Shown here: piece by piece, positions 16,383-37,781 of the stretch
How positions within the stretch are numbered: the stretch's first letter is position 1
How the letters are laid out: the number at the start of each line of letters is the position of its first letter
Origin: Candidatus Altimarinota bacterium
Lineage (GTDB): Bacteria; Patescibacteriota; Gracilibacteria; UBA1369; LOWO2-01-FULL-3
Reading direction: 5' to 3'
Assembly: GCA_016763975.1 (NCBI GenBank)
Contig: JAESSS010000018.1
Span: forward strand, 1-39,090
Length of the DNA: 39,090 nucleotides
Notes under the pieces: model-generated
Told to the model about the DNA's origin: nothing
The model's input: the letters and a program-made list of their open reading frames with translations, nothing else
The model's database searches: none
Position numbers and translations under genes: made by a program

Positions 16383-16736
16383 GGGCCTGTAGCTCAGCTG
16401 GTTAGAGCAGTCGGCTTAAAGAAGAGAGGCTAAGTCAATTCGATACGCCTCAATATCATTGGGCTGCTTAGAGAGCAATTTCTAAGTGATCATCTGTCAA
16501 ATTCGGGGAACGCTAAGTCCATTATGGATATGCCAATCCCGAGCCAAGCGCTTTGCGTAATTTATGCAAAATGAAGGTGTAGAGACTAGACGGCAGACTC
16601 CCCTTTCTGTAAGGGCGGCATTAATGCCGCAGGGGATGAAGGGATAGTCCAGCTTACAAACTCGAAAGATGCTATGAAAATAGTAGTGAGACGCATAACC
16701 GATTTGTCCCTGGTTCAAGTCCAGGCAGGCCCACCA
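16383..16736 (+). tRNA. tRNA-Ile(CAU) interrupted by a group I intron
   Basis: The exons are 16383-16416 and 16694-16736. Joined they give a perfect 7-bp acceptor stem (GGGCCTG/CAGGCCC), A73 and an encoded CCA. The D arm is GCTC-AGCTGGTTA-GAGC, the anticodon arm GTCGG-CTCATAA-CCGAT, and the T arm CCTGG-TTCAAGT-CCAGG. The anticodon is CAU. The sequence around it closely matches the minor isoleucine tRNA, which needs lysidine at C34 to read AUA; initiator tRNA features (mismatched first pair, three G:C pairs in the anticodon stem) are absent. The intron sits between U33 and C34. Splicing is required before the tRNA can work. Confidence 0.93.
16417..16693 (+). other. Group I self-splicing intron in tRNA-Ile
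   Basis: 277 nt with no reading frame for a homing endonuclease. The 5' exon ends in U and the intron ends in G, as group I introns require. Internal guide GGCT at 16428-16431 pairs with exon GGCT, giving the U.G at the splice site. Core elements: P (AAATTCGGGGAACGC, 16499-16513), Q (CCAATCCCGAGCC, from 16533), R (GTAGAGACTAGACGG, 16579-16593) and S (GGGATAGTCC, 16641-16650). P4 pairs TCGGG with CCCGA, and P7 pairs GACTA with TAGTC. CCCTT/AAGGG near 16600 forms P8. Subgroup IC3-like is likely from the tRNA location but not proven. Confidence 0.93.
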
Positions 16737-29178: not shown

Positions 29179-31581
29179 ATGTGGAAAAAATTTACAGCCC
29201 TAGTGGCAATCCTCAGTATCCTAGCAACAAACGTTGCATTTGCTGACAACGGTGGAACTCCAATCGATCCACCTGCAGGTGCACCATCTAACGATGCATA
29301 CCTTACAAACTTCTCTGTTGCTCCAATTACTATTAATCCTAGTATTGGTGAAAACATGGATGTTTCTTTCGACGTTCTAAAAGACGTAAGCCTCAACGCA
29401 TACGTTGTTGACGGTTCTTTGAACTTTGTAGAAACATTTACTCTTGGTGAAGCAGTGACTGCTGGTACATCAAAGAGTTATAAGTGGCATGGTACTGTTA
29501 ACAACGCTAGCGGTGGTACTGCTATTGCTGACGGTAAATACACTGTAGTTGTTTACGGAACTGAGAACGGAAACGTACTAGCTCCTGCCAGCCAGGAGGT
29601 AACTATCGAGTCTGCAGTTACTCCTGTAAATTCTCTTATTCCACAAGTAAATTTCTTGAAGGCTGTTCCACAATCATTCTCAGCTGCTGATGCTGATGTT
29701 ACAAACATCTCATTCGACGTATCTAAGGATGCTTACCTAGCAGTTGTTATCAAAAACACAAACAATGTTACTGTTCGTAGATTTGATGACTACAAAGAAG
29801 AATGGTACCTATCTTTTGAATCTCCACAATCACTATCTTGGGATGGTACTAACGAACTAGGTAATGAAGTGGCTGATGGTAAATACAAAATCGAGGTTAC
29901 AGCTACAAACGACGACGGTACAGATGTTGAGACTTACGAAGTTGAAATTGATACTACAGTTGTAGTAACTACAGGAATTCTACAAAACGTAAAACTTTCT
30001 CCAAGAGCTACTTGGGATCCTACTGATGAGTTCCTAGAAATCCACCTAGACCTTGAAACTAAAGTTAAATCTCTACGTATCGACGCTAAGAAAGGAAACA
30101 AAGTTATCGAGATTCTTGACGACGATTACGCTGATGACGGTGACTACGAAGAAGAATGGGATGGTACAGACGACGATGGTGATTACATTAGAGAAGGAAC
30201 TTGGGAAATTATCATCCGTGCAGACGGTGAAAAAATTACTAAGACTATCGACGTTAAATACGCTAAACCTAACGTTCTAGAAGCATACGTATCAAAAGAT
30301 TCTTTTGATAGCGACAAAGAAGAATTCACAAACCTTATCTTTAAAGTAAGCGAAGCAGCTCTAATTACTGTTGATGTTTACAAAGGAGCTAAGAAAGAAT
30401 TCACTCTTATCAAAGATGAAGAAGTTAGAAAGAACAAATGGTATTCATACACTTGGGATGGTTACGACGAAGACGGTGGAGAAGTAAACACTGGTAAAGA
30501 CTGGAGATTCCAAATCGTTGCTGAAAATCTTACAGAAGACGACGTATTCGGATTCAAGAGTGTTGATGTAGATATCGAAAGAGACAAAGTTAGCGATAAG
30601 AAAGCAAACGTTACTAACGATTCTATCTTCCCAGCTATCTTTGACGACAAAGTTATGAGCTACGCTAACCTTTACTACTGTGTAGATGAAGAAGCTGAGC
30701 TAACTGTTTCAATCTACGAAGGTGAGACTGCTTCTGGTAAAACTGAAGCTGAGCTACTAGATAAATACGAAGTAGATGCTGGTTGTAACTACCTTGAATG
30801 GAATGGTCGTGACGGAGACAACAAACAACTTGATGACGGTGTATACACTTACAAAATTCAATCTAAGGTTGGATCTCACAAAGATACTGAAACTGGATTG
30901 TTTGTAATCGGAAACACTGACACAACTTTGTACTTCGAAGAACCTCCGTTCATCGATGAAGAACCTGAACTACCTACTGTACCAGAATTTGAATATACTG
31001 ATTGTTCTGACTACTACTGGGATACTAAGGGTGTTGATTATGAATCATGTGAAGCTATCGCATGGGCTACTAAATGGGGTATCTTCTCTGGATACGCTGA
31101 CGGAAGATTTAGACCTTTCCAAACTATCAATCGTGCGGAAGTTCTAAAAGTAATCCTAGAAGCATTTGGAGACGGTGTTTCAATACTTCCTGCTAATGGT
31201 ACTTCACTTGGATTCGCTGATGTTGAGCCTCTTGCTTGGTACATGCCTTACATGAGAACTGCTCAAATTCACGGAATGCTCCACGGTTTTGGTGGAACAA
31301 ACGATGTGAGACCATACAAAGATGTGAATCGTGTTGAATTCCTTAAGCTTGCAATAGAAGCTAGTGACGCTTTCACAGGATTTGATATCCCATCTTACGG
31401 TTACTCTTACTACGCTGACGTAAACGCTAGCAACCCAGATCAAAACTGGTTCCTAGACTACGCTGGAGTAGCATACTCTTACGATCTCTTCGACGGTGCT
31501 TACCTTAACGGTGGTGCTGGAGTGACAAGAGCTGAAGTAGCTACTGTTCTCTACAAGATGAGTATGAATGGACTTTTATAG
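29179..31581 (+). CDS. Probable major S-layer protein with five FlgD-like Ig units and SLH domains
   Basis: 800 aa. Signal peptide WKKFTALVAILSILATNVAFA, cut before DNGG. Five Ig-like units (for example LSWDGTNELGNEVADGKYKI, EEWDGTDDDGDYIREGTWEI, LEWNGRDGDNKQLDDGVYTY) and three C-terminal SLH domains beginning at CSDYYWDTKGVDYESCEAIAWA. Paralogous to the gene before it. Codon choice differs from nearby genes: Asn, Asp, Tyr and Phe codons frequently end in C, and Leu is often CTA/CTT instead of TTG. This is a usual mark of very high expression, so I infer this is the main surface-layer protein. A 12-residue acidic/Pro linker (EEPPFIDEEPEL) precedes the SLH part. A strong terminator lies about 80 nt downstream. 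Confidence 0.9.
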   Translation: MWKKFTALVAILSILATNVAFADNGGTPIDPPAGAPSNDAYLTNFSVAPITINPSIGENMDVSFDVLKDVSLNAYVVDGSLNFVETFTLGEAVTAGTSKSYKWHGTVNNASGGTAIADGKYTVVVYGTENGNVLAPASQEVTIESAVTPVNSLIPQVNFLKAVPQSFSAADADVTNISFDVSKDAYLAVVIKNTNNVTVRRFDDYKEEWYLSFESPQSLSWDGTNELGNEVADGKYKIEVTATNDDGTDVETYEVEIDTTVVVTTGILQNVKLSPRATWDPTDEFLEIHLDLETKVKSLRIDAKKGNKVIEILDDDYADDGDYEEEWDGTDDDGDYIREGTWEIIIRADGEKITKTIDVKYAKPNVLEAYVSKDSFDSDKEEFTNLIFKVSEAALITVDVYKGAKKEFTLIKDEEVRKNKWYSYTWDGYDEDGGEVNTGKDWRFQIVAENLTEDDVFGFKSVDVDIERDKVSDKKANVTNDSIFPAIFDDKVMSYANLYYCVDEEAELTVSIYEGETASGKTEAELLDKYEVDAGCNYLEWNGRDGDNKQLDDGVYTYKIQSKVGSHKDTETGLFVIGNTDTTLYFEEPPFIDEEPELPTVPEFEYTDCSDYYWDTKGVDYESCEAIAWATKWGIFSGYADGRFRPFQTINRAEVLKVILEAFGDGVSILPANGTSLGFADVEPLAWYMPYMRTAQIHGMLHGFGGTNDVRPYKDVNRVEFLKLAIEASDAFTGFDIPSYGYSYYADVNASNPDQNWFLDYAGVAYSYDLFDGAYLNGGAGVTRAEVATVLYKMSMNGLL

Positions 31582-31657
31582 TCCGACTCGGGGTCGCTAA
31601 AGGCGATGCCCACCCAAACTAAGTACGGTTACATTTTTCATAGGAATGAGGGGAAGG

Positions 31658-31687
31658 ACCCCGCTCGCAAGAGTGGGGTTTTTCTTT
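31658..31687 (+). terminator. Terminator of the S-layer gene
   Basis: 9-bp stem ACCCCGCTC/GAGTGGGGT (one G.T pair), GCAA loop, then TTTTTCTTT. The 76 nt between the stop codon and the stem also hold a small hairpin, TCGC-TAAAG-GCGA. Confidence 0.9.
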
Positions 31688-31690
31688 AGT

Positions 31691-31738
31691 AAAAAGAATA
31701 ATTAGTAGAGCTGCGTATTTCATCTGATTATTCTTTTT
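31691..31738. repeat. Perfect 12-bp inverted repeat
   Basis: AAAAAGAATAAT at 31691-31702 and ATTATTCTTTTT at 31727-31738, with 24 nt between. It lies just after the S-layer terminator, where the foreign-looking segment begins. It could be a second (bidirectional) terminator or a segment boundary. Confidence 0.7.
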
Positions 31739-31810
31739 GCCACGTAAAATTGTAATTTGCCTTGTAATGGTTTTGGGCGTAACTTTTGCTGTGCTTGGGC
31801 GTAATCTAAG

Positions 31811-31839
31811 TTGACTAATACGTCGATTTAACGTATAGT
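31811..31839 (+). promoter_or_regulatory. Near-consensus promoter of a gene-free structured region
   Basis: TTGACT, exactly 17 bp, TATAGT; predicted RNA start near 31846, the first base pair of the long stem at 31845/31974. TTGGGCGTAA occurs twice, 24 bp apart, shortly upstream and could be an activator site. Confidence 0.7.
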
Positions 31840-31845
31840 TCGAGC

Positions 31846-32350
31846 TCTTTTACTACTTCTTATAGTTTGCCTGCAACTGTTGGTAGTCATAAGGATTTAT
31901 GGCCTGCATACACGCGATAGGGATTCCTTCAAGAAGGGAGACCTGCGCCTATTTTGTGGCCTAAGTAGTAAGAGGTGACCTTTGACATCTCGATAGAACG
32001 ATTACTTTTGAGCGCTTTCTGTGCTTGTAAGTAATCGAGTTAGTGTGAGTTAGGATTTGCTTCGTAGACGCGCTTATACGCGACTCAGTGAATTCGTAAA
32101 GGACCATCGGACTATGGGGATAAGGCGGCATCTTGCAGGCTGTCTTCTTGTCTCCATGTTCCGGTAGGTCCTTTGACTCCGTTTTAACTTGGTTCCCGTG
32201 CTTCGGCATGTGGAATCGATGGAATTAGAAGACTCACGAACATGTTGTTCGGGAGTTAAAGTTTTTAAAATTGGACTTGTGGCGTCTGGATGACGTGCAA
32301 GTTTAGTCGATTTTGACGAGGACTTCACGCATGTGTGTGGATTCCTCAAA
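31846..32350 (+). ncRNA. Candidate large structured RNA 1 (about 500 nt)
   Basis: No convincing reading frame. By eye it forms a series of stems: 31845-31858 with 31963-31974, enclosing 31911-31921/31948-31958 and 31924-31929/31934-31939; 31999-32007 with 32029-32037, plus inner AGCGC/GTGCT; 32098-32105 with 32167-32174, continuing through 32114-32124/32147-32157; 32191-32217 with a TTCG tetraloop; 32232-32256; 32275-32302; and 32318-32347. Many stems contain G.U pairs valid only on the + strand, matching the promoter's direction. I find no tmRNA, RNase P, SRP or 6S signature. It may instead be a long leader for the lipoprotein gene at 32454. Confidence 0.55.
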
Positions 32351-32362
32351 ATAGTGCATTAG

Positions 32363-32434
32363 CCCGCCCTTGGGCGGGGGGTAGAGAGTTCGCCATGCCG
32401 GTGGACCCTCAACGAACCGCCCTCCGACGGGCGG
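32363..32434 (+). other. Two G+C-rich hairpins before the lipoprotein gene
   Basis: CCCGCCC/GGGCGGG at 32363-32378 and CCGCCC/GGGCGG at 32417-32434. Neither is followed by a T-tract. They mark the switch to G+C-rich sequence. Confidence 0.6.
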
Positions 32435-32453
32435 CTGACAGGGAGATCGAGCA

Positions 32454-35111
32454 ATGCTTTCGAAGCGCGCTCTTATTGTGGCCCTTGCGGCCTTTTACCT
32501 GGTGGCCCTTACGGGTTGTCAGGCTGACAGAGAACAGGGGGATGCGGCGACGCTGACCCAGTACGGAACTGGTGGCGACGACGGCTCGACTGGTACTTCG
32601 GGGACGACTGGGACCACGAGCACCGACAGCAACGGCGGTACCAGTGGAACTTCGGGAACGACCGGAACTAGTGGAACCTCCGGAACCGACGGTTCGACTG
32701 GGACCTCCGGAACGACCGGGACTAGTGGAAACCCTAACGTCATTTGTGGCGACGGGGTATGCCAGCAGGCTGAAGAAGGTTGCGGGACTTGTCCCGGCGA
32801 CTGCGGCTGCGGCAACGTCCAGAAGTGCGTAAGCGACACGTGTTGCACACCAAACTGCAGCGACACCGCCTGCGGCCCCGATGGCTGTGGTGGTTCCTGT
32901 GGTGGCTGCTCTAATGGCGAACAGTGCCAAGGCGGCCAGTGTTCAGTTCAAGCCGGCTGCGGTAACGGCCTATGCGAAAGCGGTCTCGGTGAAAACTGCT
33001 CCAACTGCCAGTCTGACTGCGCGTCACAATGTGCCCTTGGCCAGATCTGCACATCGGAAGGCTCATGCTGTGCGCCGGACTGTTCCGGCAAAGAGTGTGG
33101 ACCTTCGGGTTGCGGTGGTGGAGTCTGCGGCGTTTGCCCAGGCCAATCCGCCTGCAATACTACAACCTTCCAGTGCGTGACCCAGGCCGGCTGCGGTGAT
33201 GGCATCTGCCAATCCGGAGAGAACTGTGCTAGCTGTGCGCTGGACTGCGGTTGTACCAGTGGCCAATGCACCCCCTTCGGCAGCTGCTGCACTCCTAACT
33301 GTGGGAGCAAACAATGTGGCCCAGACGGATGCGGCAACAGCTGCGGGTCATGCGGAAATCAGCAGGGCTGCCAAGCCGGTCAGTGTGTTAACGCCCCCAC
33401 CTGTGGGGATGGCTTCTGCCAGGCTAACGAGAGCTGCGCCAGCTGCCAAACGGATTGCTCCTGCGGCTTCGCCCAGGAGTGCACTCCAGCCGGAACCTGC
33501 TGCACACCAAGCTGCACCGACAAAGCCTGCGGCGGCGACGGTTGCGGTGGCCAATGTGGCGTCTGCGCGACTGGCTCGCTCTGCGACCAGTTCCAGTGCG
33601 TGATTCAGGTCACGTGTGGCAACGGGTTCTGCGAACCGGCTAACGGGGAAAACTGCGGGAACTGTCCCGACTGTGCGGATGTTTGCCAGGACGGCCAACT
33701 ATGCCTCGACAGCGGAACCTGCTGCACGCCGGACTGCGATAACAAGCAGTGTGGCGGCGACGGTTGCGGTGGCGAGTGCGGCGCCTGTCAAAACTTCGAA
33801 ACCTGCAATGCCGACGACGGTTCGTGCAACTGCATCCCGGACTGCTTCAACAAAGCGTGCGGGGACAACGGCTGTGGTGGCCAATGTGGCGACTGCGCCG
33901 GTGGACAAGCTTGCTCAACTTCCGGCCAATGCGTCTGCCAACCAAACTGCTCAGGTAAGACCTGCGGCGACAACGGTTGTGGCGGATCTTGTGGTAACTG
34001 CGCGGGCGGAACCACTTGCAATGCGGCCAGTCAGTGCGCGTGCGTGCCTCAGTGCTCCGGCAAGACTTGCGGAGCGGACGGATGTGGCAGCACTTGCGGC
34101 ACGTGCGCCGTAGGCAATCAATGCACGAATAGCGGCGTCTGTCAGTGCGCCCCCAATTGTACTGACAAAGAGTGTGGAGACAACGGGTGTGGAAGCAGCT
34201 GCGGGAGCTGCACCACGCCAGGCGAGACTTGCAACGCGGCGGGCACCTGTGAAGGTCCCCCGCCGTGCTTGGGCTCCTGCTTCGGCAAGGGCTGCAACGA
34301 GCTAGACGAGTGCGGCCTTAGCTGTAACACCTGTTCAGCTGGCCAGTTCTGCAACCAGAACAACGGGCAGTGCAACTGCGCGCCGAGCTGCACGGACAAG
34401 GTTTGTGGGGACGATGGGTGTGGCGGTTCCTGCGGGGGCTGTGACGCTGATCAGATCTGCGGAACTACCGGACAGTGCGAGTGCGCACCTCAGTGCTCGA
34501 ACAAGAACTGTGGAGATGATGGTTGTGGTGGCAGCTGCGGGATCTGCGATGGCACTTGCGCTGACGGTGTTTGCCAATGCATTCCAAACTGTACGGACAA
34601 GGTTTGTGGGGACGATGGATGCGGGGGTTCCTGCGGAGGTTGTCTCCTAGACGAGGTCTGCCAGTTAAACGGGCAGTGCGAGGCGCAATTCTGCTCCTCC
34701 ACCGACGACTGCTCTTCGGGGCAGTTCTGCTATGAATCCGGGTGCCACACCCCCTGTGACACTACGGTTAGCGCCTGTACCGACGACAACATCTGCCTGG
34801 TCCTTGAGTACGAACACGCGGGCGGCGTGCTGTCACTTTTGGAGCCGGGCTGGGACTTCTCCGTCAACGAGGAGCTCGAGCCGAACGGCTGGGTGCAACG
34901 AATCTGGGAGTGCCAGGAGTTAAAGCTCAACCTCCTCTTCAACGGCAATGCTGCCGTGAACATGGTGGTGAAGGCCTCACCCATGGGCATGGATGTCTAC
35001 CCCAACGCCGACGGAATTAACCCCGCCGGCGACATGGACTCCCCGTTCCCGGGTATGACCAGCTGGTTCGACCCGACCGGAGCTCCCACGCTCTTCATCT
35101 TCAACAAGTAG
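32454..35111 (+). CDS. Cys-rich repeat lipoprotein (885 aa)
   Basis: Signal peptide with lipobox ALTGC, so Cys22 should be lipidated after export. Then a Gly/Ser/Thr-rich low-complexity stretch (about 38-97). The bulk alternates two Cys-rich motifs: about five units of the CGDGICQSGENCASCALDC type and twelve regular plus one divergent unit of the CTPDCDNKQCGGDGCGGECG type. A non-repetitive C-terminal domain of about 120 residues, rich in Trp and Pro, ends the protein. Such Cys-rich modules are typical of secreted proteins of Myxococcota and related Deltaproteobacteria (established observation; similarity here judged by eye). G+C-rich codons and a clear GGGAGA ribosome-binding site set it apart from neighbouring genes, suggesting transfer. 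Confidence 0.85.
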   Translation: MLSKRALIVALAAFYLVALTGCQADREQGDAATLTQYGTGGDDGSTGTSGTTGTTSTDSNGGTSGTSGTTGTSGTSGTDGSTGTSGTTGTSGNPNVICGDGVCQQAEEGCGTCPGDCGCGNVQKCVSDTCCTPNCSDTACGPDGCGGSCGGCSNGEQCQGGQCSVQAGCGNGLCESGLGENCSNCQSDCASQCALGQICTSEGSCCAPDCSGKECGPSGCGGGVCGVCPGQSACNTTTFQCVTQAGCGDGICQSGENCASCALDCGCTSGQCTPFGSCCTPNCGSKQCGPDGCGNSCGSCGNQQGCQAGQCVNAPTCGDGFCQANESCASCQTDCSCGFAQECTPAGTCCTPSCTDKACGGDGCGGQCGVCATGSLCDQFQCVIQVTCGNGFCEPANGENCGNCPDCADVCQDGQLCLDSGTCCTPDCDNKQCGGDGCGGECGACQNFETCNADDGSCNCIPDCFNKACGDNGCGGQCGDCAGGQACSTSGQCVCQPNCSGKTCGDNGCGGSCGNCAGGTTCNAASQCACVPQCSGKTCGADGCGSTCGTCAVGNQCTNSGVCQCAPNCTDKECGDNGCGSSCGSCTTPGETCNAAGTCEGPPPCLGSCFGKGCNELDECGLSCNTCSAGQFCNQNNGQCNCAPSCTDKVCGDDGCGGSCGGCDADQICGTTGQCECAPQCSNKNCGDDGCGGSCGICDGTCADGVCQCIPNCTDKVCGDDGCGGSCGGCLLDEVCQLNGQCEAQFCSSTDDCSSGQFCYESGCHTPCDTTVSACTDDNICLVLEYEHAGGVLSLLEPGWDFSVNEELEPNGWVQRIWECQELKLNLLFNGNAAVNMVVKASPMGMDVYPNADGINPAGDMDSPFPGMTSWFDPTGAPTLFIFNK

Positions 35112-35187
35112 ACGCCCATCCCGAACCCACCGGGCGGCTACACCGTCCGGTGAGATTCCGGACCCTTCCATCTTTTCTATCGAGTGA

Positions 35188-35219
35188 CCTCGTCCGATGC
35201 TCTCATGCGTCGGACGAGG
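35188..35219. terminator. 13-bp hairpin after the lipoprotein gene
   Basis: CCTCGTCCGATGC pairs with GCGTCGGACGAGG around a TCTCAT loop; 77 nt after the stop. No strong T-run follows, so it may be an RNA-stabilising hairpin or factor-assisted terminator. Confidence 0.6.
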
Positions 35220-35248
35220 AACCTTTCCAAATTTTTATATGTTAAAGC

Positions 35249-35269
35249 AGCAATGTGAATTGCTTTTTT
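35249..35269 (+). terminator. Intrinsic terminator of the lipoprotein transcript
   Basis: AGCAAT/ATTGCT stem with GTGA loop followed by TTTTTT. Confidence 0.65.
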
Positions 35270-35402
35270 GGTATGCAAAAATTGGAAACTAGGCATTGTG
35301 AGTGTCTAAATGTTTCCCGGAGAGCGGGAAGGGGGCAGCGTTATAGCGTACCCTCCTTCCGTTCACCGTGCAGCAGAGGTTGAAGGGACTACTGCTACAA
35401 AG

Positions 35403-36359
35403 TTAGAAGGTGATGATGCCGCCGGTAGTGGCGGCGATCGAGATGCCTGCAACAGCTGAGTTGTCATTGTTGACCACCCAGCCGCCGCTGAGCTTGAGGT
35501 ACCACCAGCCGGAATGGGCTAGGATGACAGCGTTTATCGACATGGTCATCTGGTTCTGCTCGCCCGTGAAGGGGGCCTCGTTGAGGCTGATGACCCCCTC
35601 AGGGCCGAAGTCCAGCCAACTGGTGATCTCACCCATCAGGCCGACTTTTCCCATGAAAATCACGGGATGGGACTCCTTACTGGTGTCGCCATCGTCGACC
35701 TTCATATTGGAGACTCCTATGGAGACTCCGAAGGTCACATCTAAGCGTGGATAGACCTCGCGGGCGAAGTCAGCGGATATGACTGTGATGACGGGGCTAT
35801 TGCCCTCGTCGATGGCCACAAATCCGCGGACGGAGCCTCCGACGCGAAGTTTCCAGAGACTTTCACCGCTAGGATCAGGTTCCTCGACGGGTTTGTCGGA
35901 GGCCTTGTCCTTTTCGACGATCTCAAATCCGGCGGCCTCAATGGCTTTGCGGATCTGAGCCTTGATAGCGGCGAGACGCTTCTCGAGAGCACCAATCTCC
36001 TCGACCATTGCTCCGATGCAACGAGGCAATGGTTTGTCTTTGGGATCCTCATCCGCAGCTGCGGCGGGAGGTGCCTCTTTCTTCGCATTTTCGAGTCCCT
36101 TGCGCAGGGTCTCGATCTCGCCACGGAGGGCGTCGAGGGTTGATTTGTCTGCCGTCGAAGTGGCAAGGGCCGCTTCTAGTTTTGCGATCTCAGCGCCGTA
36201 GCGCTTGACTAAAGCCCGCCGTTTCGCTGCCCACGAGGGCGTTGCGCGACGACAACATTTTGTACAATCTGAATCCTGTGACATCGCTGGCGCAGGGGCT
36301 AAACTGACCGAAGCCAGCACGATAAGGACCGTCATGGCCCAGTTCATGTTCCTTCTCAT
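35403..36359 (-). CDS. Exported envelope protein: coiled coil plus beta-rich domain
   Basis: Signal peptide MRRNMNWAMTVLIVLASVSL, cut near PAMSQ. A Cys pair region (DCTKCC) and a helical coiled coil of about 130 residues follow (KRYGAEIAKLEAALATST, GALEKRLAAIKAQIRKAIE), with an Ala/Pro linker between. The last 150 residues alternate short strands (LRVGGSVRGFVAI, VTFGVSIGVSN, WWYLKLSGGWVV) and end in an aromatic residue (GGIITF), as outer-membrane beta barrels do. CPR bacteria usually lack such proteins, so this supports a foreign source. The frame is open to 36434; AAGGAGA eight bases before the ATG at 36359 fixes the start. Function unknown; barrel assignment is tentative. Confidence 0.75.
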   Translation of the reverse strand: MRRNMNWAMTVLIVLASVSLAPAPAMSQDSDCTKCCRRATPSWAAKRRALVKRYGAEIAKLEAALATSTADKSTLDALRGEIETLRKGLENAKKEAPPAAAADEDPKDKPLPRCIGAMVEEIGALEKRLAAIKAQIRKAIEAAGFEIVEKDKASDKPVEEPDPSGESLWKLRVGGSVRGFVAIDEGNSPVITVISADFAREVYPRLDVTFGVSIGVSNMKVDDGDTSKESHPVIFMGKVGLMGEITSWLDFGPEGVISLNEAPFTGEQNQMTMSINAVILAHSGWWYLKLSGGWVVNNDNSAVAGISIAATTGGIITF

Positions 36360-36434
36360 AGAACATTTCTCCTTCCCCACACAGGGGCTCAAAGTCCCCC
36401 GGTGGGTAGTTTCGGGGTACGTAACATTAAACAT

Positions 36435-36771
36435 GATTGAATTGGCAAATCACCAGTTTCTAACAATTTAAAGACCAGTAAATTGCCAACTCAATACTTT
36501 CTCACAATGCCTGTCAAAGATCATTGGGTAAGATGTCGGACCAGAAATGTATTCCTAAATTGGAATCAAGTGTTGATACGCGACGAAATTATACCCAGGC
36601 CAATTACCATATGTATAAAATTGAGTTTTGTCAATCTTGCAGCCTCAAAGTATCTAGAGAATAGGGCTTGCCTTTTACAGGGGAATGTTGTAGAATCCAC
36701 ACCTGCTTTTTAAATGCTTGGTTGATCGATGTGTCAAAACATCAGATCCTAAGATAAAAGTAGACAGTTCT
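36435..36771. other. Intergenic stretch without a supported gene
   Basis: AT-rich. It contains TTGGCAA at 36442-36448 and its complement TTGCCAA at 36483-36489, and a hairpin GATGT/ACATC near 36728-36743. A 76-codon frame at 36483-36713 has no protein-like character. Confidence 0.5.
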
Positions 36772-36800
36772 TTGACAGCCTACATACATTTTTCTAGAAT
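36772..36800 (+). promoter_or_regulatory. Consensus promoter of structured region 2
   Basis: TTGACA, exactly 17 bp, TAGAAT; predicted RNA start near 36807, at the left arm of the first hairpin. Confidence 0.75.
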
Positions 36801-37200
36801 TGGTCGGAAAGAATCCTGAGTGACGACACTCACTTAAATCCCCTTCCGACCATTTCTCAACTTTATACTCCAAGCGACTTCGGTCGCATAGAGTACTCTG
36901 CCTACTGCTTGGACCTTGCAGTTAGATGTGACAGAGTTTAAGGTCCCAAGCGCGATAAGCGTATTGAGGGGCACGAAGCCCCATTTGCCGAATGTATTTG
37001 TTTAAAATGAGTGCGTATGTTCCCACGTATCACCCTCCATTCTACAAATACACTCGGTCCTTACACCAAAATCCCCAGAGGCACGTGTCACTGGAGACAG
37101 AGGGGTTTCACGACCCCGATTTTGCTCGATTACCCTCGAGCCGATGTTACTCGATTATGAGAAGCTCGCAGGGTTTTAATCCTGCGAGCTTCTCAATTTG
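36801..37200 (+). ncRNA. Candidate structured RNA 2 (about 400 nt)
   Basis: No convincing gene. Stems seen: TGGTCGGAA/TTCCGACCA (36801-36809/36844-36852) with inner GAGTG/CACTC; TACTC/GAGTA enclosing GCGAC-TTCG-GTCGC (36866-36895); GCTTGGACCTT with AAGGTCCCAAGC (36907-36917/36940-36951, one bulge); GGGGC/GCCCC (36968-36982); a 14-bp pairing 36988-37001/37044-37057 with one mismatch; CTCGA/TCGAG (37125-37140); and a final 14-bp hairpin. Promoter and terminator-like ends make a complete transcription unit. Caveat: the predicted start at 36807 would cut the first stem. It could also be a leader of the NifU-like gene. Confidence 0.5.
37159..37194. terminator. Perfect 14-bp hairpin ending structured region 2
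   Basis: GAGAAGCTCGCAGG and its exact complement around an 8-nt T/A-rich loop. Only a weak T-run (AATTT) follows. It sits 5 bp before the extended -10 of the next gene, insulating it. Confidence 0.7.
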
Positions 37201-37207
37201 CTAAAAT
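37199..37207 (+). promoter_or_regulatory. Extended -10 promoter of the NifU-like gene
   Basis: TGcTAAAAT; predicted start near 37214. This excludes the in-frame ATG at 37206 and supports the ATG at 37239. Confidence 0.5.
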
Positions 37208-37238
37208 GTATGTAGGCTTAATTTCAAAAACTCAAATT

Positions 37239-37781
37239 ATGCAAAAGTTTTCTAAAGAAGAGGCAGATGGATGTGGCAAAACCGCAGATATTGAGGTTTT
37301 TGTTAAAGTGAGAAAGGATTCACAGATCCCGGCTTTTGATGCTGTGGGTGATTTTTATTTTCAATCAGAAGAACAATCAAAATATAACGATAAGGTAGCG
37401 GAGATGCTCACTGAATATAATGGTATGTTTTTGGATGATGTAATGAAGCTGGAGGAAAAAGATGTTTTTTCGGCAATGGGAGAAGATATTCATGCAAAAG
37501 ATAGATTTGCTATTCCGGCACTGAGAGCTGTAAAAAAGGCGATCATCAATTACTTCAAAGAAAGTGACCAAGAAGATCGTTATCGCAAAGCAACGGACAA
37601 AGTTATTTGTCATTGCAAACATGTCACCAAACAAGAGATCAAAGAAGCAGTGGAAAAAGGCAAAGATTCATTTATCGAAGTGATGAAATCCACAGGTTGC
37701 GGCACCGGTTGTGGCAGTTGTAGTCGCCAAGCGAGGGAGATTGCCGAGGGATATATACGAACAGGATTGGGAAGTTTTTAG
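37239..37781 (+). CDS. NifU-like protein with degenerate IscU-like and BFD-type [2Fe-2S] domains
   Basis: 180 aa from the ATG at 37239 (MQKFSKEEADGCGK). The C-terminal third is a BFD/NifU-central-type [2Fe-2S] domain: VICHCKHVTKQEIKEAVEKG with Cys124 and Cys126, then TGCGTGCGSC with Cys154, 158 and 161. The N-terminal part follows the IscU pattern (GCGKTADIEVFVKV, then DDVMKLEEKDVFSAMG and ALRAVKKAI). It keeps only the first of IscU's three cluster Cys (Cys12); the second and third positions are FYF and RFA. So it probably no longer acts as an assembly scaffold, but as an electron carrier or regulator. It lies just upstream of a thioredoxin-reductase-like gene on the same strand, a possible redox partner. 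Confidence 0.75.
   Translation: MQKFSKEEADGCGKTADIEVFVKVRKDSQIPAFDAVGDFYFQSEEQSKYNDKVAEMLTEYNGMFLDDVMKLEEKDVFSAMGEDIHAKDRFAIPALRAVKKAIINYFKESDQEDRYRKATDKVICHCKHVTKQEIKEAVEKGKDSFIEVMKSTGCGTGCGSCSRQAREIAEGYIRTGLGSF

Follow-up and report, generated by a model that had tools for sequence, protein, structure and literature searches.

Antitermination through boxA is regarded as nearly dedicated to rRNA, together with a few autoregulatory mRNA cases, and the protein that binds boxA is NusB. Structured 5' RNAs are also found upstream of other genes, for example the EAR RNA (Bacillus eps), which precedes surface and exopolysaccharide genes, and the put RNA of HK022, which precedes phage genes. EAR, put, and the leaders associated with LoaP and RfaH depend on NusG paralogues or on different RNA elements. 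Kissing loops are also known from ROOL. The boxA consensus of gamma-proteobacteria is GYTCTTTAANA, and in a known mRNA case, that of E. coli suhB, boxA represses rather than activates (PMC5725501).

Here, we analyzed a stretch of 39,090 nucleotides (the window), which is contig 102 of a 1.45-Mb MAG. Positions 31846-32350 are part of a new 5' leader RNA family located before GC-rich lipoprotein genes in Candidatus Peregrinibacteria. A search with the neighboring TrxR-like gene returned named relatives that are mostly Candidatus Peregrinibacteria or Peribacteria MAGs. In the open-access literature (subscription papers and preprints were outside the scope), no paper combining Peregrinibacteria with noncoding RNA was found, and the matches listed included nothing about lipoprotein leaders with boxA.

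A strongly folded region downstream of a predicted promoter

An initial annotation of this DNA had proposed that a near-consensus promoter drives a gene-free, densely structured transcript of about 500 nt. The computed promoter match is located where it had been placed (Table 1), and promoter-like sites are frequent in 31550-37300 (10 observed vs 2.5 expected). The plus strand of 31846-32350 is indeed without an ORF of note, and its computed fold reaches -198.7 kcal/mol (z -9.4), a value that none of 100 shuffled sequences attained. The strand specificity deduced earlier from G-U pairs holds because the reverse strand folds much less well (-122.3 kcal/mol, z -2.7). The predicted start was said to coincide with the first pair of the longest closing stem; it does open stem P1, but P1 spans only the first ~130 nt and not the whole RNA. 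The reported lack of hallmarks of known RNAs agrees with our Rfam 15 scan (OLE, ROOL, GOLLD, HEARO, tmRNA, RNase P, SRP, and 6S included), in which the window RNA gave nothing over the gathering threshold and no meaningful match at E <= 10. At the other leader loci scanned, nothing but tRNAs and the 16S rRNA of L350 exceeded the threshold.

Intergenic tiles of the same genome and of relatives have a median best-strand z of -1.2, and coding sequences a mean of -0.3. Against the intergenic background, 31846-32350 is exceptional, as are the island spacers 35112-35402 and 36435-37205; the idea that spacers are densely structured throughout the genome was rejected against this background. A strand-specific excess of structure is also present in the corresponding spacers of relatives (G numbers denote genomes), with z values for the plus vs the minus strand of -13.4 vs -4.4 in the window, -16.8 vs -4.6 in G012, and -11.7 vs -2.8 in G021, and with a smaller strand difference in G022 and G004. 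These values are rough because each rests on 12 shuffles.

Table 1 Features of the leader and of the adjacent island genes in the window.
Feature	Position	Strand	Remarks
Sigma-70 promoter TTGACT-17-TATAGT	31811-31839	+	Predicted start 31846; leaders with recognized promoters share TTGACW, a 16-18 nt spacer, and TAnnnT
P1, 5' strand	31846-31858	+	13 pairs with 31963-31975; from fold
Hairpin P2 (CUUAU/AUAAG)	31859-31893	+	Covariation
Loop L1 GCCUGCAA	31869-31876	+	Kissing partner of L2
P1, 3' strand	31963-31975	+	From fold
boxA GACCTTTGACATCTC	31977-31991	+	First 14 nt equal the 16S rRNA leader boxA of this genome
Hairpin 2 (P5)	32098-32174	+	Conserved core helix 32113-32124 / 32147-32158
Loop L2 UUGCAGGC	32133-32140	+	Complementary to L1 over 8 bp; window p 0.002
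Variable distal leader	32175-32445	+	More hairpins, no intrinsic terminator, AGGGAG ribosome-binding site at end
Lipoprotein gene downstream of leader RNA	32454-35111	+	885 aa, Cys-rich
p343, GC-rich exported coiled-coil protein gene	35403-36434	-	Second island gene; likely start is the Met of MRRNMNWAMTV
boxA-like GATCTTTGACAGGC in p343 leader	36509-36522	-	Match looser than in first leader
p343 promoter TTGACA-17-TATGGT	36606-36634	-	

Conserved helices and a loop-loop interaction

DNA-level searches with the window RNA against phages, plasmids, and 60 relatives gave only short AT-rich chance matches, and blastn across genera at the locus returned little beyond the terminator of the S-layer-homology (SLH) gene. 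Homologues were obtained via synteny first and then via structure. Within one genus, G012, G022, and G027 align, and 20 pairs are changed on both sides yet kept. Comparison of these three with G021, G018, G001, and the window yielded a shared plan, in which the promoter is followed by the closing stem P1, hairpin P2 with loop L1, and a boxA motif directly after P1; long forms have an additional second hairpin, whose loop L2 pairs with the P2 loop in a kissing pseudoknot.

The computed covariation supports this plan. P2, P5, and L1:L2 are paired in 161/161 cells of a trimmed alignment of 7 sequences, and both partners have changed in 9 pairs (0/500 shuffles). When any helix partner in the core alignment is slid, pairing falls to <=44%, and in a helix scan that covered this alignment exhaustively without knowledge of the structure, the three elements rank top three by covariation. 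P2 alone, assessed in 14 sequences, is paired in 100% of cells, 15 of which are changed on both sides (0/500 shuffles), while the P1 duplex between start and boxA beats shuffled sequence across 18 leaders (Fisher p 1.5e-9). The kissing loops stay paired via compensatory changes in 8 leaders from 5 genera, and L1:L2 complementarity surpasses that of shuffled loops (Fisher p 1.8e-12, 7 leaders), as illustrated by the pairs GCCTGCAA/TTGCAGGC in the window, GATACCCGC/GCGGGTATC in G021, and GCCCACTT/AAGTGGGC in G027. A search recovered a second G021 leader (E 6e-9) that was no part of the training data, and its loops pair as well (AATTCCCGCT/AGCGGGAATT). The core alignments were hand-trimmed with the structure in view and comprise only 7-14 sequences. 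In the shorter leaders (G014, G017, G015, G036, G049), kissing loops are missing or unrecognized.

The RNA is thus a structured family with covariation that is new to Rfam. Three of the refuting conditions listed in the initial annotation, namely a Rfam match, a lack of covariation among homologues (now seen for P2, P5, and L1:L2), and folding no better than that of shuffled sequence, were checked, and none refuted a structured RNA. The two options it had left, a new large structured RNA or a long leader of the lipoprotein gene, are supported together, in the form of a family outside Rfam that serves as a 5' leader; boxA, the kissing loops, and the set of similar leaders had not been part of that reading.

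A 76-nt repeat shared with locus L065 was rejected as a leader motif, as it is an interspersed repeat that occurs in L065 and not in L066. A ~75-nt interspersed repeat at 980-1055 of L065 (reverse-complement coordinates) has <=20 matches per genome in the G027 genus; several further family members have 1-14. The covariance-model candidates L191 and L194 were judged to be chance.

A boxA motif shared with the rRNA leader

The segment directly after P1, i.e. boxA, is the most conserved part of the leader. Its motif GACCTTTGACATCT was computed to be identical in 14/14 bases to the boxA that this genome carries in its 16S rRNA leader (G000:C98). Perfect matches to GAYCTTTRAMANCTC occur only twice in this genome, in the window leader and in a lipoprotein leader on contig 7. 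A match with one mismatch is located on contig 98 upstream of the 16S rRNA (SSU model, 197 bits), where GACCTTTGACATCTA corresponds to GACCTTTGACATCTC of the window leader. The rrn leaders of relatives carry the same kind of motif (GTTCTTTAACATC in G018, GACCTTTAACATC in G001), and the gamma-proteobacterial consensus is matched exactly by a leader on contig 4 of G018. The window boxA lies 131 nt downstream of the predicted start, and other leaders are similar; transcription is predicted, not measured. A loose boxA pattern with <=2 mismatches was found genome-wide without enrichment over a reversed control, and only perfect and contextual matches are informative.

Computational searches identified NusB in the same genome (TIGR01951, 139.8 bits, G000:C40) and in 27/30 genomes of the family; they covered NusB and not S10, NusA, NusG, or Rho. 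Judged by the sequence and genomic features tested, the leader meets those of a boxA element, its function being inferred. A lipoprotein family characterized by KVPxPxGYxWExTQSW (loci L346, L169, L180, and L198), which is present in the same genome and in G010, G021, and G026, has a short leader with boxA in a hairpin such as GAGATGTTCTTTGACATCTCG.

Genomic setting and distribution

The leader is housed in an island flanked by the SLH gene (end 31581) and a BFD/TrxR gene pair (37206, 37844). In G016, G006, G020, and G005, the SLH side and the BFD/TrxR side are only 160-350 nt apart, and many further genera of the family have GC-rich genes (GC 0.58-0.65) in the same slot, with a third-position GC of up to 0.86 vs ~0.3 for neighbors. 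The lipoprotein gene of the window has a GC of 0.61 and a GC3 of 0.69, with ~0.4 for the genome. Chimeric assembly or contamination as a source of the high-GC genes was rejected because many independent MAGs hold such genes in the same slot. For p343, no homologue was detectable by sequence within the family.

Several further observations were made in the window. The slot (31582-37205) holds GC-rich exported-protein genes in many genera and lacks them in others, and the contigs of several MAGs break off there. The spacer between the two convergent GC-rich genes (35112-35402) shows strong folding for either strand (z -6.7 to -7.2). At 36772-37218 (plus strand), the BFD gene has its own promoter, TTGACA-17-TAGAAT, and a strongly structured leader of ~400 nt, in which no boxA was recognized downstream of that promoter; the BFD start codon lies inside a perfect 16-nt inverted repeat (36777-36792 / 37203-37218). 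In the 3' region of the SLH gene (31620-31690), the motif ACATTTTTCATAGGAATGAGGGG followed by a terminator is kept across genera. At a distance from the island, a tRNA gene on the plus strand (16383-16736; Leu-UAA by ARAGORN with introns allowed) has its anticodon loop split by a group I intron of ~240 nt (Rfam RF00028, 16441-16674).

Covariance models run on 353 genomes of the class detected leaders in ten genera, nine within the family and one in a sister family, which is a lower bound because the strict filters of the wide search miss weak members, the window included. A contig scan anchored on TrxR gave no additional leader-bearing species. About 24 leaders were tabulated from covariance models and manual inspection, with TTGACW promoters, spacers of 16-18 nt, and mostly 55-131 nt between start and boxA. 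They end at ribosome-binding sites, and nearly all precede GC-rich exported-protein genes in AT-rich genomes, the ORFs having a GC of 0.52-0.65 and, in nearly every case, a lipobox or a signal peptide. The genome of the window has several, located before its lipoprotein gene, before p343, on contigs 7 and 44 (lipoproteins), on contigs 54 and 55 (exported), and possibly on contig 28. Each of three genes in the G021 island has its own copy. In a sample of five genomes (about 1.2 Mb), the extended motif was present upstream of 7/28 GC-rich genes vs 16/936 others (odds ratio 19, p 1.4e-6); since some of these leaders had served to define the motif, the test is in part circular. One record titled Nitrospirota bacterium (L201, JAUVQE010000021.1) is a Peregrinibacteria-like contig with a TrxR 74% identical and the same leader family.

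Proposed role and alternative explanations

No terminator-like site was computed on the plus strand between 31846 and 32454, which argues for a leader acting in cis. We consider it likely that this RNA forms the 5' leader of the lipoprotein mRNA and acts as an rRNA-type antitermination leader, in the absence of RNA-seq, Nus-binding, or termination data. This interpretation is favored because of the boxA identity, the presence of NusB, the strong promoters, and the GC-rich ORFs, and it implies, by inference, that boxA activates rather than represses. RNA polymerase would initiate at 31846, and P1 with its hairpins would then fold, exposing boxA (31977-31991) just after P1. The putative loading of NusB-NusE(S10) and partner factors, as on pre-rRNA, would yield a modified polymerase that could transcribe through the long, structured, untranslated leader and on through the GC-rich ORF, escaping termination by Rho or at hairpins. 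Across boxA, the loops of P2 and hairpin 2 are predicted to kiss, resulting in a compact fold that would probably set boxA accessibility and protect the leader. The role of the kissing loops is likewise inferred; they may hold boxA exposed or guide folding, and short leaders manage without them.

The same recruitment of Nus factors could instead switch the lipoprotein gene off by early termination, with the fold as an on/off switch, since boxA of the suhB mRNA is repressive (PMC5725501). The minimum-energy fold of the window lets boxA CUUUGAC pair with GUUAAAG near 32255, and boxA of G012 and G022 is able to pair with an upstream GUUAAGG, indicating that alternative folds exist. However, these pairings differ between genera, and strong promoters with very long transcribed leaders fit expression, so that repression appears unlikely to us. 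The length, the elaborate fold with kissing loops, and the rRNA-type boxA could also point to a stand-alone machine similar to OLE, ROOL, or GOLLD that is processed from the transcript, whereby the lipoprotein ORF would be merely co-transcribed and boxA would be due to the RNA being untranslated, as in rRNA. We regard this as quite improbable in view of the missing terminator before the ORF, the exported-protein ORF that almost always follows in the same orientation, the separate copies of the three G021 island genes, and the short forms that retain boxA and gene without hairpin 2. A ligand-sensing riboswitch, RNA thermometer, or mRNA stabilizer with an incidental boxA, compatible with the kissing-loop fold near the 5' end and the ribosome-binding sites at leader ends, can hardly be maintained, as boxA and not a pocket is the most conserved segment, matches the rrn boxA exactly, and precedes genes that share export and GC content but no common pathway.

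The leader carries the boxA signal that otherwise serves rRNA transcription in this bacterium, and this suggests that rRNA-style transcription is used for a set of foreign-looking surface proteins. A broader proposal, whose chances of being right or wrong we hold to be evenly balanced, is a dedicated boxA regulon in Peregrinibacteria. It would comprise surface lipoprotein genes that are rich in GC and look foreign, every one of them having its own structured kissing-loop leader or short boxA leader and being transcribed by an rRNA-type antitermination complex, so that polymerase crosses GC-rich ORFs in an AT-rich cell. With the leaders described here, the rrn boxA is now seen in a new covarying RNA family that, within a single Candidate Phyla Radiation lineage, precedes numerous genes for exported proteins. 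High expression is an inference suggested by rRNA-like transcription. If true, the proposal shows how reduced bacteria could express GC-rich surface proteins, and it provides a first handle on the function of these proteins as well as a bioinformatic signature for such genes.

Comparison with described systems

To our knowledge, no leader of the EAR, put, LoaP, or RfaH type combines an rrn boxA with kissing loops; the window leader differs from them in having both, without a Rfam match. It resembles OLE, ROOL, and GOLLD in length and elaborate fold, but it is the cis leader of an ORF and has no meaningful match to these families in Rfam at E <= 10. The 5' UTR of E. coli suhB likewise has a boxA upstream of an ORF; in contrast to the Peregrinibacteria cases, which are structured leaders of 100-600 nt before lipoprotein genes, boxA of suhB autoregulates a Nus factor and represses (PMC5725501). 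Compared to the rRNA operon leader (boxB-boxA-boxC, Nus antitermination complex), the window leader drives a protein gene with no rRNA after it and has P2 and a kissing pseudoknot, whereas it shares with that leader the succession of promoter, leader hairpins, and boxA, a boxA identical to that of the 16S leader in its own genome, and the presence of NusB.
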